From Halopenitus persicus (lineage in GTDB: Archaea; Halobacteriota; Halobacteria; Halobacteriales; Haloferacaceae): 64,000 bases of DNA. The notes under the pieces are model-generated. The model was not told the origin of the DNA and searched no databases. It saw only the letters and a program-made list of their open reading frames with translations. Positions within the stretch are counted from its first letter, which is position 1. Each line of letters starts with the position of its first letter. A program made the translations under genes and the position numbers. The stretch lies in contig NZ_AP017558.1 of assembly GCF_002355635.1 (NCBI RefSeq), positions 1,550,001 through 1,614,000 on the forward strand, written 5' to 3'. Positions 277-63,860 of this stretch are shown piece after piece.

Positions 277-509
277 GTCCGGATCCTGGTGGCCGGACGA
301 CTTGCCAATTACGCCCCGATCGCCGCGATCCGGGCCGAACTGGTGGGGCTCCCGTGATGCCGGCCCCTCCGGACGTGCTCGTGATCGGCGGTCTGCCCCG
401 CGTGGCTCGCGCGCAGTCACCGGAGCCGGACGTCACGCCGACGCCATCCCCGTGCGCAGCCGCGATCTCGGGGCAAACACTATCCCTTCGGGAAGCGACC
501 GGACTGGGT

Positions 510-893
510 ATGGGCGTCGTTGACGATCACCTCGACCTCGAAACGCTCGATCGCCGCCACCGGCTCGGGATCGGGCTGGCGGCAGTGACGGGCGCGATCC
601 ACCTGGTATTGGGGATGGGAGCGCCAACCACGCCGATCGGGGTGGCGTCGATCCTGGCGGGGATCGGCTACGCCGGAGCGATCGTCCTCGTGCTGGTGGG
701 ATACCGCCGGCGGTTGGTCGCCGCGGTCGGCATCGTCTACGTCGGCAGCCAGATCGTCATCTGGTACGTCGTCAACCGGCCAGCGTCGCTGGCGGCGGTT
801 TCGCCGGCCGCGATGGTCGACAAGCCGGTTCAGGTGTTGCTGATCGCCGTCTGCGTCGCGATCGTGCGACGGAGCGGAGCTGCGGGGGAGTAA
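510..893 (+). CDS. Small four-helix membrane protein, unknown function
   Basis: A 127-residue protein with about four hydrophobic segments (roughly residues 19-36, 42-64, 69-87 and 104-118) and short charged ends. An in-frame start at 354 exists, but the extra 52 residues are low-complexity and non-hydrophobic, so ATG 510 is preferred. The stop lies only 7 nt before the GTG of the CDP-alcohol phosphatidyltransferase, so the two are probably co-transcribed. I do not recognise a named family. An integral membrane role is inferred from hydrophobicity only. Confidence 0.6.
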   Translation: MGVVDDHLDLETLDRRHRLGIGLAAVTGAIHLVLGMGAPTTPIGVASILAGIGYAGAIVLVLVGYRRRLVAAVGIVYVGSQIVIWYVVNRPASLAAVSPAAMVDKPVQVLLIAVCVAIVRRSGAAGE

Positions 894-900
894 ACCGGTC

Positions 901-1656
901 GTGAGTGGGGAACGTCTCACTCGCGTCGATCCGCTCGCCGCGAGCCTCCTCACGGCGGTCGGGGGCGTCGTGGGCTGGCTCGCCGTTGTCGGCGTCCTGG
1001 CGTCGGGAGGCTATCCGTTTCCGTTCCTCACGGCAGTAGCCGGTCTGCTCGCGCTGCAAGCCGCGGTGCTTGCGGCCATCTATCGCCCCGCTGCCGTGGC
1101 TGACGGGCGCCCCTCGTTTACGCTGCCGACGGTACTCACGATCGTTCGAGGCGGCGCGATCGCCGTCCTCGCCGGGTTTCTCCGTGCGACCCCGGAGGGC
1201 GTCGTCGTCTGGGTGCCCGCCCTCCTCTATGCCGCCGCTGCCAGTCTCGACGCGGTCGACGGCTTCCTCGCCCGATCGACCGGGACGGTCACCGACGTGG
1301 GCGCGCGGCTCGACACGGAGATGGACGCGCTGGGTCTGCTCGTCGGCGCCGCCGTGGCGATCTCGGTCGGGATGGCACCCGCGATCTACCTGCTCGTCGG
1401 CCTGGCGCGCTACGCGTTCGTCGCCGGAATCGAGCTCCGACGGTGGCGCGGTGACCCCGTCAGCAGGTTGCCCGAGAGCCGCCTGCGGCGGCTCAACGCC
1501 GCGGGACAGATGGCCGTGCTGATCGTCGTGCTTGCTCCCTGGCCGGGGACGGCCGCGTCGCGTCCGATCGCGACCGTCGCCATGGTGCCGTTTCTGCTCG
1601 TCTTCGGTCGGGACTGGTTGCTTGCCACCGGTCGCCGCGAGGGGCCGGTTCGGTGA
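901..1656 (+). CDS. CDP-alcohol phosphatidyltransferase family protein
   Basis: A 251-residue integral membrane enzyme. Residues 117-142 match the family signature D-x2-D-G-x2-A-R-x8-G-x3-D-x3-D exactly; its aspartates bind the divalent metals that position a CDP-activated alcohol. Family members join a CDP-alcohol (for example CDP-archaeol) to a second alcohol, making polar lipids. The motif sits between hydrophobic segments, as usual. The start is GTG, 7 nt after the preceding membrane-protein gene. The substrate alcohol cannot be read from sequence. The stop codon lies inside the first unit of a 19-bp tandem repeat. Confidence 0.85.
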   Translation: MSGERLTRVDPLAASLLTAVGGVVGWLAVVGVLASGGYPFPFLTAVAGLLALQAAVLAAIYRPAAVADGRPSFTLPTVLTIVRGGAIAVLAGFLRATPEGVVVWVPALLYAAAASLDAVDGFLARSTGTVTDVGARLDTEMDALGLLVGAAVAISVGMAPAIYLLVGLARYAFVAGIELRRWRGDPVSRLPESRLRRLNAAGQMAVLIVVLAPWPGTAASRPIATVAMVPFLLVFGRDWLLATGRREGPVR

Positions 1657-1741
1657 GTTCGGATCGGTTCGGTGCGTTCGGATCGGTTCGGCGCGTTCGG
1701 ATCGGTTCGGTGCGTTCGGATCGGTTCGGCGCGTTCGGATC
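1647..1741 (+). repeat. 19-bp tandem repeat, five copies, spanning a stop codon
   Basis: Five head-to-tail 19-nt units (1647, 1666, 1685, 1704, 1723) of consensus ggttcggtgcgttcggatc with one to two substitutions. The TGA stop of the preceding gene (1654-1656) lies in unit 1, where tgc of the other copies reads tga. The array then fills the start of the intergenic space before the dehydrogenase at 1903. Confidence 0.9.
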
Positions 1742-1902
1742 AGTCTGGTCACCCCGGACTGACTCGGTGACGTGAGGGGAATTCCTAAGAGACCGCCGGG
1801 TGAATCGGTGTTCATGACGGTCTCATTCCACGCTGCCGGCGGCCGAATCGTGTCCGTACCCGTCCCGACTTCGACGACCGCGTGCTCGTCGGATGCCGCG
1901 TT

Positions 1903-2916
1903 ATGAGTGCCCGCACCGTCCGTTTCACCGGCGACGAGGCGGTCGAGGTCGCACACGAACCCGTTCCCGAAGTGACGCCGCAGACGGTCCTGGTCGAGAC
2001 GACCTACTCGGGCATTAGCGCCGGGACGGAGGGGCTGGTCTACCGGGGGGACGTCCCCAGGCCGCTGCAGTCGGCGGGAACGGTCCAACTGCTGGAGGAG
2101 GACTTCACGTATCCCGTCGCCTACGGCTACGCGACGGTCGGACGCGTCGTCGCCGTGGGCGAGGCGATCGATGACGACTGGCTCGACGAGCGCGTGTTCG
2201 CCTACGCGCCACACAGCAGCCACGTCCGCGCGTCGCCGGCGGAACTCGTTCGGATCCCCGACTCGATACCGTCCGAGCGGGCGCCGCTGTTGGCCAACGT
2301 CGAGACCGCCGTGACGCTCGTCCTCGACGCGAACCCGGCGATCGGCGAGCGCGTTGCGGTCTTCGGACAGGGGATCGTCGGCCTGCTCGTGACGGGGCTG
2401 CTCGCCGAATCCCCCCTGGAAGATCTCGTGGCGGTCGAGCCGCTGGCCGAGCGCCGGGAGCGAGCCCGCCGTATGGGTGCATCGCACGCCGTACCGCCGG
2501 ACGCGGGCGACCCCGGGCGGGCGATCCGGGAGGCGATCGGCGAGCGCGTCGATGGCTGCCTCGAGGTGTCGGGCAACCCGGACGCGCTGGAGAACGCGAT
2601 CACCGCGACGCGATACGACGGTCGCGTGATCGTCGGATCGTGGTACGGCACGAAGCCCGTCGACCTTCCGCTTGGCGGTCGGTTCCATCGCAGCCGGATC
2701 GACGTCGAAAGCAGTCAGGTCAGCACCATCGCACCGCGCCATCGTGGCCGGTGGTCCCGCGAGCGGCGCCACGAGGTGGCCTGGGACTGGCTCGAATCGC
2801 TCCCGGTCGGGGACCTGATCACCCACCGAATTCCGGTCGAGGAGGCCGACCGTGCCTACGAGTTGCTCGCCGAGCACCCGCGGGACGTCGGACAGATGCT
2901 GCTCACCTACGAGTAG
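1903..2916 (+). CDS. Zinc-type MDR dehydrogenase (alcohol dehydrogenase-like)
   Basis: A 337-residue medium-chain dehydrogenase/reductase. The N-terminal GroES-like part contains a GISAGTEGLVYRG segment, and a Rossmann domain begins near residue 145 with VAVFGQGIVG. The four-cysteine structural zinc loop of classical alcohol dehydrogenases is absent. Related archaeal and BchC-like proteins oxidise or reduce unusual hydroxy substrates. ATG 1903 is preferred over an in-frame GTG at 1882 because the added residues are not conserved in style. It is followed 73 nt later by the PTPS-like gene, so it probably belongs to the same pathway as the pterin, glycosyl- and methyltransferase genes. Substrate unknown. 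Confidence 0.75.
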   Translation: MSARTVRFTGDEAVEVAHEPVPEVTPQTVLVETTYSGISAGTEGLVYRGDVPRPLQSAGTVQLLEEDFTYPVAYGYATVGRVVAVGEAIDDDWLDERVFAYAPHSSHVRASPAELVRIPDSIPSERAPLLANVETAVTLVLDANPAIGERVAVFGQGIVGLLVTGLLAESPLEDLVAVEPLAERRERARRMGASHAVPPDAGDPGRAIREAIGERVDGCLEVSGNPDALENAITATRYDGRVIVGSWYGTKPVDLPLGGRFHRSRIDVESSQVSTIAPRHRGRWSRERRHEVAWDWLESLPVGDLITHRIPVEEADRAYELLAEHPRDVGQMLLTYE

Positions 2917-2989
2917 GCGGACGACTGGGCCTCGCGGTCCGTCCCGGCAGCGACCGCACGTTTTTGCCGCCGGATGAACACGGTATCGT

Positions 2990-3367
2990 ATGTACAGCCT
3001 CTCGGTATCGCGGTCGTTCGTGGCCCAACACCACCTCACGGTGCCCGACCCCGGCCCGGAGGGGGAGGTCCATTCCCACCATTTCACCGTCGAGGCGACC
3101 TTCGAAGGGCCGACGCTCGACGAGTACGGCTACCTCCTCGACATCGAGGCGGTCGAGGCGGCCATGGACGACACGATCGCCCGCTTCCGCGACGAACTGT
3201 TGAACGAACTGCCGACCTTCGAGGGGGCGAACCCGAGCGCCGAGCACCTGGCTCGGAACGTCGGGGACGAGCTGCTGGCGCGGGTCGACGCGAGCAACGC
3301 GACCGGACTCACGGTCGCCGTGCGGGAGGACGACGTGGCGACCGCCGCGCACACGCGGGATCTATGA
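2990..3367 (+). CDS. 6-pyruvoyl-tetrahydropterin synthase / 6-carboxytetrahydropterin synthase family protein
   Basis: A 125-residue protein of the PTPS/QueD family size and layout. The predicted zinc ligands are a histidine in FVAQHH (about residues 11-16) and the paired histidines in EVHSHHF (about 27-33). A DIEAVEAAMD helix and a C-terminal NPSAEHLA segment match the family. The catalytic cysteine normally just before the HxH pair is not present, so it is neither a standard PTPS nor a standard QueD by that criterion. It ends 1 nt before the glycosyltransferase gene. The likely substrate is a dihydroneopterin-type triphosphate or a derivative. Confidence 0.75.
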   Translation: MYSLSVSRSFVAQHHLTVPDPGPEGEVHSHHFTVEATFEGPTLDEYGYLLDIEAVEAAMDDTIARFRDELLNELPTFEGANPSAEHLARNVGDELLARVDASNATGLTVAVREDDVATAAHTRDL

Positions 3368-3368
3368 G

Positions 3369-4574
3369 ATGCACGTCGGACTGGTGGTCTACGACGGTCT
3401 CGACGAACGGTCCGGCGGCTACCGATACGACCGTCAGCTGGTCTCGCATCTGCGCGATCGGGGCGACGACGTCGAGGTGATCGCCCTCCCTCGAAAGGGG
3501 ACGCTCGGAACGGCCCGGGCCGCGTTCTCGCCGTCGGTCCGGCGCGCACTCGACCGACCGTTCGACGTCCTCCTTCAGGACGCGCTCTGCGAGGACGTCC
3601 TCTGGCGCCACAACCGGCGGCTAACCGAGCCCGATTCGGTCGTCGCGATCGTCCACCTGCTGCGGTCGGCCGAGGGGCAGACGGGCCTTCGCTCGCCGTG
3701 GCGGTGGCTCGAGCGGCGCTACCTGGGGACGGTGGACGGGATGGTTTGCCCCAGCGCCGCCACGCGGACCGCGACGGAGGCCCTTGCTTCCAGACCCGCC
3801 GTCGTCGCCTATCCGGCCGGCAGACACGAGGGACGGGCGACCGACCGCGCGACCGTCAGGTCGCGAGCATCCGAGACGCCGTTCACCGTGGCGTTCGTGG
3901 GAAACGTCGTTCCCCGGAAGGGTGCGGTGACCCTGCTGGAGGCGCTGACGGACCTCGCCGGCGACTGGCGGGCCACGATCGTCGGGGATCTCGGGGCGGA
4001 CCCGGAGCACGCACGGGCCGTTCGACGGGCAGTCGACCGCCACGACGCGTCGTCCCGGATCGAGCTCCTGGGTGCGGTTTCGGACGACCGGCTGGCGGCG
4101 GTGCTCGAGGAGGCGCACGTCCTCGCGGTCCCCTCCCGACGGGAGTCGTTCGGCATCGTCTACCTGGAGGCGATGGAGCACGGCACGGTTCCCGTCGCGA
4201 CGACCGTCGGCGGGCCGCCGGAGTTCGTGGTCGACGGGTATAACGGCAGGCTCGTTCCGCCCGACGATCCGGCGGCGCTTCGAACGGCGCTCCAGGGGTT
4301 GGTGGCGGATCGTGAAACGCTCGCGTCGCTGGGTGCGGGAGCCCTCGAGACGGCCGGGGCCCACTACACCTGGGCGGATTCCATGGCGCGGGTACGACGG
4401 TTCCTCCGGTCCCGAATCGTGGCTGACGTGACGGCACCACCCGCGGTGACGGTGCCGGCCGAGCGGGTGTCCGGGGCGACGACCGCGCGGTCCGTAGCGG
4501 CGACCGCGCGGTCCGTAGCCGACGGCCGATCGATCGGGTCGGGACAGCGGGACGACGGGGGAACGCGGCGATGA
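3369..4574 (+). CDS. GT4-type glycosyltransferase
   Basis: A 401-residue GT-B fold enzyme. The C-terminal donor domain has a VAFVGNVVPRKGA start (about residue 176), an E-x7-E motif in ESFGIVYLE (about residues 259-267), and an EFVVDGYNGRLVPP loop, all typical of family 4 retaining transferases. The N-terminal domain carries a GGYRYDRQL acceptor-side segment. The last 40 or so residues form a low-complexity tail containing a 7-residue duplication (ARSVAAT) encoded by a 21-bp tandem repeat. The gene starts 1 nt after the PTPS-like stop and overlaps the methyltransferase by four bases, so translational coupling is likely. Confidence 0.85.
   Translation: MHVGLVVYDGLDERSGGYRYDRQLVSHLRDRGDDVEVIALPRKGTLGTARAAFSPSVRRALDRPFDVLLQDALCEDVLWRHNRRLTEPDSVVAIVHLLRSAEGQTGLRSPWRWLERRYLGTVDGMVCPSAATRTATEALASRPAVVAYPAGRHEGRATDRATVRSRASETPFTVAFVGNVVPRKGAVTLLEALTDLAGDWRATIVGDLGADPEHARAVRRAVDRHDASSRIELLGAVSDDRLAAVLEEAHVLAVPSRRESFGIVYLEAMEHGTVPVATTVGGPPEFVVDGYNGRLVPPDDPAALRTALQGLVADRETLASLGAGALETAGAHYTWADSMARVRRFLRSRIVADVTAPPAVTVPAERVSGATTARSVAATARSVADGRSIGSGQRDDGGTRR
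4481..4519 (+). repeat. 21-bp duplication in the glycosyltransferase C-terminal tail
   Basis: Two copies (the second incomplete) of a unit beginning gaccgcgcggtccgtagc lie within the last 35 codons of the glycosyltransferase gene. They encode a repeated ARSVA-type segment. Confidence 0.8.
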
Positions 4575-5467
4575 GTGATCCCGACTATCTCACCGCGAAA
4601 CGCACGGTTGACGACCGTGCGCTCAACGATCGTGTCTTCGATGCGTTCGTGGCCGCGCTGTCCGACGAGGCCGCGCTGTCCGACGAGGCCGCGGACGGTT
4701 CCGTGTCGGTTCTCGACGTCGGCGCGGGAACCGGAACGATGGTCGTCCGCCTCGCCGAGCGCGGGATCCTCCCGTCGCACGTCACCTATCGGCTGGTCGA
4801 TCGCGACCCGGTCCACGTCGACGCCGCACGCACGCACGTGCCGGAGCGGCTCGCCGCGGCTGGCTACCGCCTCGAGGAGGACGATGAGGTGATCGTCGCG
4901 ACGCGGGGCGGCAACCGTCTCGAGGTCCGGTTCGAGACCGCCGACGCGTTCGCGATCGACGCGAGTGCGGACGTCTGTATCGCGACGGCCGTGCTCGACC
5001 TGTTGAACCCGTCGCCGGCGCTCGCCGGACTGGCCAGCCACCTCGAGCCCGGGGGCGTCCTGTACGCGCCGCTCGTCTTCGACGGCGGGACCGGATTCGC
5101 CCCGGTCCACGACGACGACCCGGCGATCGAGCGGGCGTACCATCGGCACATGGCCGAGGTCCGTGACGGGGGCGGCCCACGCGTCGGACGGCGGCTCCTC
5201 GAGGCCGTTCCCGACCTCGACGGCGAGGTGGTCGCCGTCGGCGGATCGACGCAGGTGATCCGTCCGCGGAACGGCTCCTATCCTGTTCGAGAGGACGTCG
5301 TGTTGTCCCGGCTGTTGGAGACCGTCGCTGCGGCCGTCCGGGAGGTTCCGGACGCGGCCGTCACCCCGGAGACGGTCGACGAGTGGCTGGCGGTCAGGCG
5401 GGACCAGCTGGACCGGTCGACGCTCTCGTTCGTGGCGCACAACCTCGACGTGTTGGTCCGGTGGTGA
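4571..5467 (+). CDS. Class I SAM-dependent methyltransferase
   Basis: A 298-residue protein. SAM-binding motif I is VLDVGAGTGTMVV (about residues 48-60), followed by YRLVDRDPVHVDAAR (motif II region) and a CIATAVLDLL motif-IV-like strand. The start ATG overlaps the glycosyltransferase stop (ATGA), giving tight coupling. Near the N-terminus the hexapeptide ALSDEA is duplicated by an 18-bp tandem repeat at 4651-4686. The substrate is not evident; from context it could methylate the product of the PTPS/glycosyltransferase steps. Confidence 0.8.
   Translation: MSDPDYLTAKRTVDDRALNDRVFDAFVAALSDEAALSDEAADGSVSVLDVGAGTGTMVVRLAERGILPSHVTYRLVDRDPVHVDAARTHVPERLAAAGYRLEEDDEVIVATRGGNRLEVRFETADAFAIDASADVCIATAVLDLLNPSPALAGLASHLEPGGVLYAPLVFDGGTGFAPVHDDDPAIERAYHRHMAEVRDGGGPRVGRRLLEAVPDLDGEVVAVGGSTQVIRPRNGSYPVREDVVLSRLLETVAAAVREVPDAAVTPETVDEWLAVRRDQLDRSTLSFVAHNLDVLVRW
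4651..4686 (+). repeat. 18-bp tandem duplication in methyltransferase N-terminus
   Basis: Two exact copies of ggccgcgctgtccgacga in frame within the methyltransferase gene, giving the repeated ALSDEA hexapeptide. Confidence 0.85.
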
Positions 5468-63107: not shown

Positions 63108-63860
63108 ATGCACCTCTCGGATGCGACCTGGACCGACGTCCGCGACGCGACGATCGACGCGGCCGTGATCCCGGTCGGGAGCACCGAACAGCACGGCCCC
63201 CACGCACCGCTGGGAACCGACGCGCTCAACGCCGCCTCCGTCGCGACCGAGGCGGCCGACCGGTACGCGACGGCGGACGCACGGGGCGGCGAGGTCCTCG
63301 TGACGCCGACGATCCCGGTCGGGATCGCCGAGGAGCACCGCGGCTTCGACGGGACGCTCTGGGTGACCCCCGACACGTTCCGCGCGTACGTCCGCGAGAC
63401 GGCCGTCTCGCTCGTCCGGCACGGGGTGGAGCGCGTCGTGTTCGCCAACGGCCACGGCGGGAACGTCGACGCCCTCGCGGAGGTCGCCCGTCGGTTCTCG
63501 CGCGATCCGGACCACGGCGGCTACGCGGTCGCGTTCACCTGGTTCGACGCGGTCGGCGAGCACGCGAGCGAGATGGGCCACGGCGGCCCCCTCGAGACCG
63601 CGCTCCTGCGGGCCACCCATCCCGAGCTCGTTCGCGAGGACCGGATCGAGGCGGCGGCCGCGGGAGCGACCGACCGCTGGGGCGAGTGGGTCGCCGGGGT
63701 CAACCTGGCGCACGACTCCGACGCGTTCACCGACAACGGCGTGGTCGGCGACCCGCGCGGGGGCGACCGCGATCGCGGCGAGCGTCTGCTCGAACTCGCG
63801 AGCGAGTCGTTCGTGGATCTCCTGACCGCGGTCGTCGACCGCGATCTCGATGCGAACTGA
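63108..63860 (+). CDS. Creatininase/ArfB-family amidohydrolase
   Basis: A 250-residue member of the creatininase family. The metal and catalytic motifs are STEQHGPHAPLGTD (about residues 24-37), ANGHGGN (about 107-113) and EMGHGGPLET (about 152-161). In archaea the characterised relatives are ArfB, the formamide hydrolase that opens the pathway to riboflavin and F420 after GTP cyclohydrolase III; creatinine breakdown is unlikely here. ATG 63108 gives the family-like start MHLSDATW. Its nearness to the ABC exporter has no obvious meaning. Confidence 0.85.
   Translation: MHLSDATWTDVRDATIDAAVIPVGSTEQHGPHAPLGTDALNAASVATEAADRYATADARGGEVLVTPTIPVGIAEEHRGFDGTLWVTPDTFRAYVRETAVSLVRHGVERVVFANGHGGNVDALAEVARRFSRDPDHGGYAVAFTWFDAVGEHASEMGHGGPLETALLRATHPELVREDRIEAAAAGATDRWGEWVAGVNLAHDSDAFTDNGVVGDPRGGDRDRGERLLELASESFVDLLTAVVDRDLDAN

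Follow-up and report, generated by a model that had tools for sequence, protein, structure and literature searches.

We have analyzed a run of genes within a 64,000-nucleotide stretch of the genome of the haloarchaeon Halopenitus persicus (assembly GCF_002355635.1, contig NZ_AP017558.1, positions 1,550,001 to 1,614,000 of the forward strand), which is referred to below as the window. The run encodes a CDP-alcohol phosphotransferase, a BchC-like medium-chain dehydrogenase (MDR), a PTPS-like protein, a GT4 glycosyltransferase and a class I methyltransferase dependent on S-adenosylmethionine (SAM), as listed in Table 1. An initial annotation of the DNA had named these five families, and profile matches were found for all of them; the five reading frames are intact. 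The close spacing that it described is also seen in the coordinates, with 1 nt between the PTPS-like and GT4 genes and a 4-nt overlap between the GT4 and methyltransferase genes. Its placement of the MDR and CDP-alcohol transferase genes upstream in the same run holds as regards their presence and linkage, but requires some refinement. The gap between the CDP-alcohol transferase and MDR genes is about 249 nt, and holds a tandem repeat, while that between the MDR and PTPS-like genes is 73 nt; with gaps of this width, the genes of the source genome may be split over more than one transcript. Furthermore, a gene for a DUF7475 protein stops 7 nt ahead of the CDP-alcohol transferase gene. Since it adjoins that gene here and accompanies it in other genomes (within 1.5 kb in 17 of the 39 loci that have a CDP-alcohol transferase), the run begins upstream of position 901. 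The MDR probably starts at the ATG at 1906 and not at the GTG at 1882, because alignments with its relatives begin at about residue 7-10 of the longer version.

Table 1. Features of the gene run, in positions of the window
Feature	Position	Strand	Evidence and remarks
DUF7475 small membrane protein	354..893	+	PF24287, 32 bits (cut-off 31.3); member of the set added beyond the five
CDP-alcohol phosphotransferase	901..1656	+	PF01066 CDP-OH_P_transf, 64 bits, E 2e-17; catalytic motif DGFLARSTGTVTDVGARLDTEMD intact
19-bp tandem repeat, unit CGGTTCGGTGCGTTCGGAT, 5.1 copies	1646..1741	none	Between the CDP-alcohol transferase and MDR genes
BchC-like MDR	1906..2916	+	PF00107 ADH_zinc_N, 52 bits; TIGR01202 bchC, 76 bits
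PTPS-family T-fold protein, ExxxHSH subfamily	2990..3367	+	PF01242, 84 bits; alignment, tree and AlphaFold2 model
GT4 glycosyltransferase (GT-B)	3369..4574	+	PF13692 Glyco_trans_1_4, 110 bits; E-x7-E motif ESFGIVYLE intact
Class I SAM-dependent methyltransferase	4571..5467	+	PF08242/PF13649/PF13847, 31-34 bits

The distribution of the genes was surveyed in 99 genomes of one family, the Haloferacaceae; calls of absence depend on the search threshold. PTPS-like genes were found in 87 genomes, MDR genes in 88, methyltransferase genes in 86 and CDP-alcohol transferase genes in 83. The PTPS-like and MDR genes are present together in 87 genomes and jointly absent from 11, so that they agree in 98 of 99; the lone mismatch, an MDR gene without a PTPS-like gene, is in an assembly that is 62% complete. 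For the PTPS-like gene and the CDP-alcohol transferase gene the corresponding numbers (both, PTPS only, partner only, neither) are 83, 4, 0 and 12, and for the PTPS-like and methyltransferase genes 84, 3, 2 and 10. Fisher p values, uncorrected for phylogeny, are 9.5e-14 for the MDR, 2e-12 for the CDP-alcohol transferase and 1e-9 for the methyltransferase. The four genes are all missing from ten genomes and an eleventh keeps only a methyltransferase relative; these absences are spread over several genera. Co-occurrence of the genes, which had been proposed as a check on the run, is thus well borne out within this family. The CDP-alcohol transferase, which it was thought could be unrelated, belongs to the set and is not a bystander, since all 83 genomes that have it also carry the PTPS-like gene.

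Gene order was compared in the 75 genomes whose locus was fetched. The PTPS-like and MDR genes lie no more than 3 kb apart in 67 of these, and a GT4 or methyltransferase gene is found within 3 kb of the PTPS-like gene in 62. The GT4 gene adjoins the PTPS-like gene on the same strand in 36 genomes, and all five genes fall within 3 kb in 12, among them the source genome. When the methyltransferase and CDP-alcohol transferase genes are not beside the PTPS-like gene they are neighbours elsewhere, as seen in all six cases fetched; the module can therefore split into two blocks. Linkage of this extent is far beyond chance, and the five genes are functionally linked as one conserved set. In a sublineage of 14 loci, Gfo/Idh genes, a second GT4 gene and in most cases also aldo-keto reductase genes (some of these fused to the Gfo/Idh genes or next to them) lie upstream of a CDP-alcohol transferase-MDR-PTPS-methyltransferase block. 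The usual GT4 gene is absent there beside the PTPS-like gene; the second GT4 is possibly a replacement of the first. Sulfatase-like genes occur near the cluster at six loci of several haloarchaea, Haloarcula among them, and at three rhizobial loci.

The order CDP-alcohol transferase-MDR-PTPS-GT4-methyltransferase recurs in bacteria, where all the clusters come from plasmid records, the collection that was searched. The Streptomyces fungicidicus cluster contains the five genes together with a creatininase-family gene and RibA; in Streptomyces the CDP-alcohol transferase gene is on the opposite strand. Clusters of the same order are found in Microbacterium, with a RibD-like reductase, and in rhizobia, with both RibA and a RibD-like reductase. 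Related gene sets are present in Methylosinus, Thiodictyon and Palleronia, and these, as well as Rhodobacteraceae clusters, also include the RibD-like gene. Over the aligned parts, the CDP-alcohol transferase is 36-43% identical to its counterparts in the bacterial clusters. A cytochrome b561 is an addition in some rhizobial and gammaproteobacterial clusters, and certain clusters encode a flippase-like protein. When the window PTPS-like protein alone was used as query of genome contigs, the eight bacterial matches gave no sign of the cluster; the only one with a clear reading is a QueD adjoining QueE, and some were used as tree outgroups. Similarly, the rest of the cluster was not found beside a Rhodococcus MDR gene or two solo PTPS genes of Streptomyces. 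Among open-access papers we found neither a characterised pathway with this gene set, in keeping with the initial annotation, nor a description of the cluster.

The strongest clue to the substrate is that two unrelated enzymes of the first step of riboflavin biosynthesis alternate beside the MDR. In 33 of the 75 genomes the gene for ArfA (GTP cyclohydrolase III) directly precedes the MDR gene and runs in the same direction, with a median gap of 14 nt as measured between BLAST matches. About 7 genomes have a second ArfA, one copy of which is at the cluster. On the Natrarchaeobaculum plasmid pAArc1-02 the arfA and MDR genes overlap by 4 nt; they are followed by a gene for a hypothetical protein and one for an IS5 transposase, and no PTPS or GT4 gene is annotated there. 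In two archaea outside the haloarchaea it is RibA that is found just upstream of the MDR gene, in the orders methyltransferase-RibA-MDR-PTPS-GT4 (with a creatininase nearby) and RibA-MDR-PTPS-GT4. RibA is likewise the cyclohydrolase of the clusters in Streptomyces, rhizobia and Palleronia, and the clusters examined contain no recognisable cyclohydrolase of the GTP cyclohydrolase I/MptA type. As the associated cyclohydrolase is of the riboflavin type, the pathway most likely starts from an early intermediate of riboflavin synthesis, namely a ribosyl- or ribitylaminopyrimidine, and not from dihydroneopterin triphosphate. The arfA gene of Haloferax is HVO_1284, the deletion of which leads to riboflavin auxotrophy (PMC8305020).

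The RibA of the Streptomyces cluster has Met at the position of Tyr105 in E. coli RibA. According to Spoonamore, this replacement reportedly diverts GTP cyclohydrolase II so that the reaction stops at FAPy. BrbF, a member of the creatininase family, is a proven FAPy deformylase (PMC9478397). The pairing of this RibA with a creatininase-family gene, a pattern that comes from few clusters, would fit FAPy as the entry compound; no creatininase is annotated in the rhizobial cluster stretches examined. Beside haloarchaeal clusters, creatininase and RibD-like genes are only rarely found (a creatininase in Haloarcula), and they are not claimed for the window. The source genome has three creatininase-family genes, one at 63120-63824 (+) in the window and another at C1:2953811-2954506, about 2 kb from arfA; their products are possible FAPy deformylases. 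At many loci, with the cluster or without it, a gene for a HAD-family hydrolase lies beside arfA in divergent orientation. It was rejected as a member of the pathway since it stays with arfA in genomes that lack the cluster. This hydrolase might be the phosphatase (EC 3.1.3.104) that PMC8305020 gives as a gap in the riboflavin pathway of haloarchaea.

To examine the PTPS-like protein, 82 cluster members from haloarchaea were aligned with 18 QueD proteins, the partial sequence of an E. coli QueD and 8 members of bacterial clusters, among them SCO6650 of Streptomyces coelicolor. The initial annotation had rightly remarked that the usual catalytic cysteine is missing: the position is Glu24 in all 82 haloarchaeal members and Cys in none, and the source protein has no cysteine anywhere. 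Because Glu24 is invariant, we read it as functional and not as a sign of decay. The position of the catalytic His is Asp68 in 81 of 82 members. The metal ligands His14 (82/82), His28 (80/82) and His30 (82/82) are kept, as in QueD, and the ring-binding Glu113 is invariant. Membership in the COG0720/PTPS T-fold superfamily is supported by this residue, by the profile score and by fold matches. The source motif is E24-G-E-V-H28-S-H30, with Gly at the third residue before His28. It corresponds neither to the ExxHGH motif of PTPS-III (folate) nor to the CxxxxxHGH motif of PTPS-II (biopterin) (PMC5041015). PTPS-III likewise has a Glu close to its metal site and does not depend on Cys alone, whereas in the cluster proteins the Glu of ExxxHSH stands exactly at the position of the QueD Cys.

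The bacterial cluster proteins have Ala in place of the Cys, Tyr in place of the catalytic His and Ala in place of the third metal His, in contrast to the Glu, Asp and complete His triad of the haloarchaeal form. Haloarchaeal and bacterial cluster members constitute a single group apart from QueD (support 97/91, although the program warns of long branches). The closest PDB entry is SCO6650 (3d7j), both in sequence (E 5e-9) and in fold (E 2e-10, for an AlphaFold2 model with pLDDT 89). The Streptomyces cluster of a SCO6650 relative has the same genes; together with the adjacent MDR and GT4/methyltransferase genes and the tree, with its long-branch caution, this assigns the source protein to the SCO6650-type cluster PTPS proteins.

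Public records label these proteins 6-carboxytetrahydropterin synthase, of queuosine synthesis, which appears to be a common misannotation. Three marks of PTPS-I/QueD are missing for the source protein, the Cys of CxxxHGH, the His of the DH motif and a QueC in the genome, where the matches to QueC are partial and score 25 bits against about 220-255 bits for true QueC. The source genome also has no QueD and no second PTPS, and apparently cannot make preQ0 itself. Full QueC is missing from 38 of the 99 family genomes; two genomes of the same genus as the source carry both QueC and QueD. The distribution of the PTPS-like gene is independent of that of QueC (54 genomes with both, 33 with PTPS only, 7 with QueC only and 5 with neither; p = 1). 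Where the loci of a genome were compared, its QueD is encoded by a gene of its own, and the tree places it outside the clade of cluster proteins. Judged by its sequence, the PTPS-like protein is not QueD. The two outcomes that the initial annotation had held to speak against a joint pathway, chance co-occurrence and a PTPS homologue acting in queuosine or archaeosine synthesis alone, were therefore not encountered.

The remaining proteins offer fewer clues. The MDR, which has the motif SGISAGTE, contains a single Cys, making a catalytic zinc site of the alcohol dehydrogenase type unlikely. Its score against the BchC equivalog profile is far below the cut-off of 291 bits, and on this basis we class it as a relative of BchC and not as BchC. 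The glycosyltransferase has the GT-B C-terminal domain and E-x7-E motif of GT4 enzymes, and the CDP-alcohol phosphotransferase contains the motif DGx2ARx7-9Gx3Dx3D. No PDB sequence match and no characterised close relative were found for the methyltransferase. Its model (pLDDT 88.5) is nearest to 3mgg, a Methanosarcina mazei methyltransferase, but the structure is a generic class I fold that gives no clue to the substrate.

Taken together, these observations suggest that the run is probably the haloarchaeal form of an archaeal and bacterial biosynthetic module that branches off early riboflavin biosynthesis. We infer every reaction of such a pathway, the order of the reactions and the product. 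ArfA, or RibA in bacteria and some archaea, would open GTP either to FAPy, to be deformylated by a creatininase-family enzyme, or directly to 2,5-diamino-6-ribosylamino-4-pyrimidinone 5'-phosphate. In many bacterial clusters the RibD-like reductase would then turn the ribosyl into a ribityl chain. The PTPS-like protein would bind the 2-amino-4-oxopyrimidine (or pteridine) ring through Glu113, and rearrange or cyclise the side chain without the Cys and His of PTPS; a pteridine could arise by cyclisation, and a pyrimidine product is equally compatible. The MDR would oxidise or reduce an alcohol or ketone of the side chain, the GT4 enzyme would attach a sugar, and methylation would fall to the methyltransferase. 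Finally, the CDP-alcohol phosphotransferase would form a phosphodiester to lipid, with CDP-archaeol or CDP-diacylglycerol as donor, or to another CDP-activated alcohol. Very tentatively, the product might be an as yet unrecognised cofactor or redox carrier common to archaea and bacteria. It would be a pyrimidine or pteridine derived from GTP, bearing a sugar and a methyl group and joined by the CDP-alcohol transferase to lipid or a phospho-alcohol, and its pathway would borrow the opening reactions of riboflavin synthesis. The cytochrome b561 and flippase-like companions in some clusters would suit a membrane-associated molecule.

Several points weigh against a branch from riboflavin biosynthesis. 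ArfA is present in all 99 family genomes, and its place beside the MDR could therefore reflect chromosomal history in part of them; in the source genome it lies 1.4 Mb from the cluster. The single RibD-family protein of that genome is presumably the riboflavin enzyme, which would leave the reductase step there without a dedicated enzyme. In rhizobia and in one archaeon, RibA retains the normal Tyr; FAPy would therefore not be the entry compound everywhere. In many genomes no GT4 gene is found beside the PTPS-like gene, and the bacterial methyltransferases are only weakly similar to that of the source (best E 3e-7).

The initial annotation had favoured a glycosylated, methylated pterin. On this account dihydroneopterin (tri)phosphate, from GTP cyclohydrolase I or MptA, would be converted to a pterin by the PTPS-like enzyme and then receive a sugar and a methyl group, to give a compound comparable to cyanopterin and the biopterin glucosides. 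White and co-workers reportedly found charged pterins in haloarchaea. This scheme is consistent with the T-fold, with the metal His triad of the haloarchaeal proteins and with the ring-binding Glu, and glycosyltransferases acting on pterins have precedent in cyanobacteria (PMC13259868) and Chlorobium (PMC5683033). However, both catalytic residues of PTPS and QueD chemistry are replaced and the cyclohydrolase is ArfA or RibA, so the description of the protein as a pterin-forming enzyme is not supported. The companion genes, RibD-like and creatininase, are likewise those of riboflavin chemistry. The known bacterial pterin glycosides, cyanopterin and that of the Chlorobium pteridine glycosyltransferase, are each made by a dedicated glycosyltransferase but are built from pterins derived from GTP cyclohydrolase I, and we know of no MDR or CDP-alcohol transferase gene clustered with theirs. 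Glycosylation and methylation thus remain plausible while pterin formation is unproven, and a pterin glycoside as the product is doubtful.

Synthesis of a cell-surface glycan or lipid, in which the PTPS-like protein would be a recruit without catalytic function, would account for the GT4 and CDP-alcohol transferase genes and for the FkbM methyltransferase, flippase-like and sulfatase-like neighbours in several clusters. It is improbable, since it leaves unexplained both the constant PTPS and MDR core and the ArfA/RibA, RibD-like and creatininase companions. A role in the synthesis of F420 is very unlikely. A 2016 review cites unpublished work that places PTPS-IV in this pathway (PMC5041015), and the haloarchaeal PTPS may be PTPS-IV; the shared ArfA-dependent precursor would then explain the linkage to arfA. 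CofD, however, is present in 98 of the 99 genomes, including all 11 that lack the cluster, which is thus not required for F420. To our knowledge the F420 pathway has no step for a GT4 enzyme or a methyltransferase, and rhizobia, which carry the set, do not usually make F420. That the protein is a divergent QueD making preQ0 for archaeosine or queuosine, as its Pfam family and public annotation might suggest, has a negligible chance in view of the missing Cys and the QueC and QueD results above, and is excluded for archaeosine in the source genome.

A riboflavin-derived module is best compared with riboflavin biosynthesis itself (ArfA/RibA, ArfB or BrbF, RibD/ArfC), the first enzymes of which accompany the cluster. 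The cluster differs in adding the PTPS-like protein, MDR, GT4 enzyme, methyltransferase and CDP-alcohol transferase, and no lumazine synthase or riboflavin synthase step is seen. Toxoflavin-type azapteridine pathways also branch from riboflavin precursors and employ RibA-like and RibD-like enzymes with a methyltransferase. We know of no PTPS-like protein, GT4 enzyme, BchC-like MDR or CDP-alcohol transferase in those pathways.

About 88% of the sampled family genomes carry the module, and relatives with the same gene order are found in Actinomycetota, Alpha- and Gammaproteobacteria and a few other archaea. This wide distribution suggests that its product is a useful, as yet unnamed small molecule. 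The pathway would provide a role for SCO6650, a protein of no known function whose structure dates from 2008, and would make the remaining unassigned PTPS subfamilies testable.

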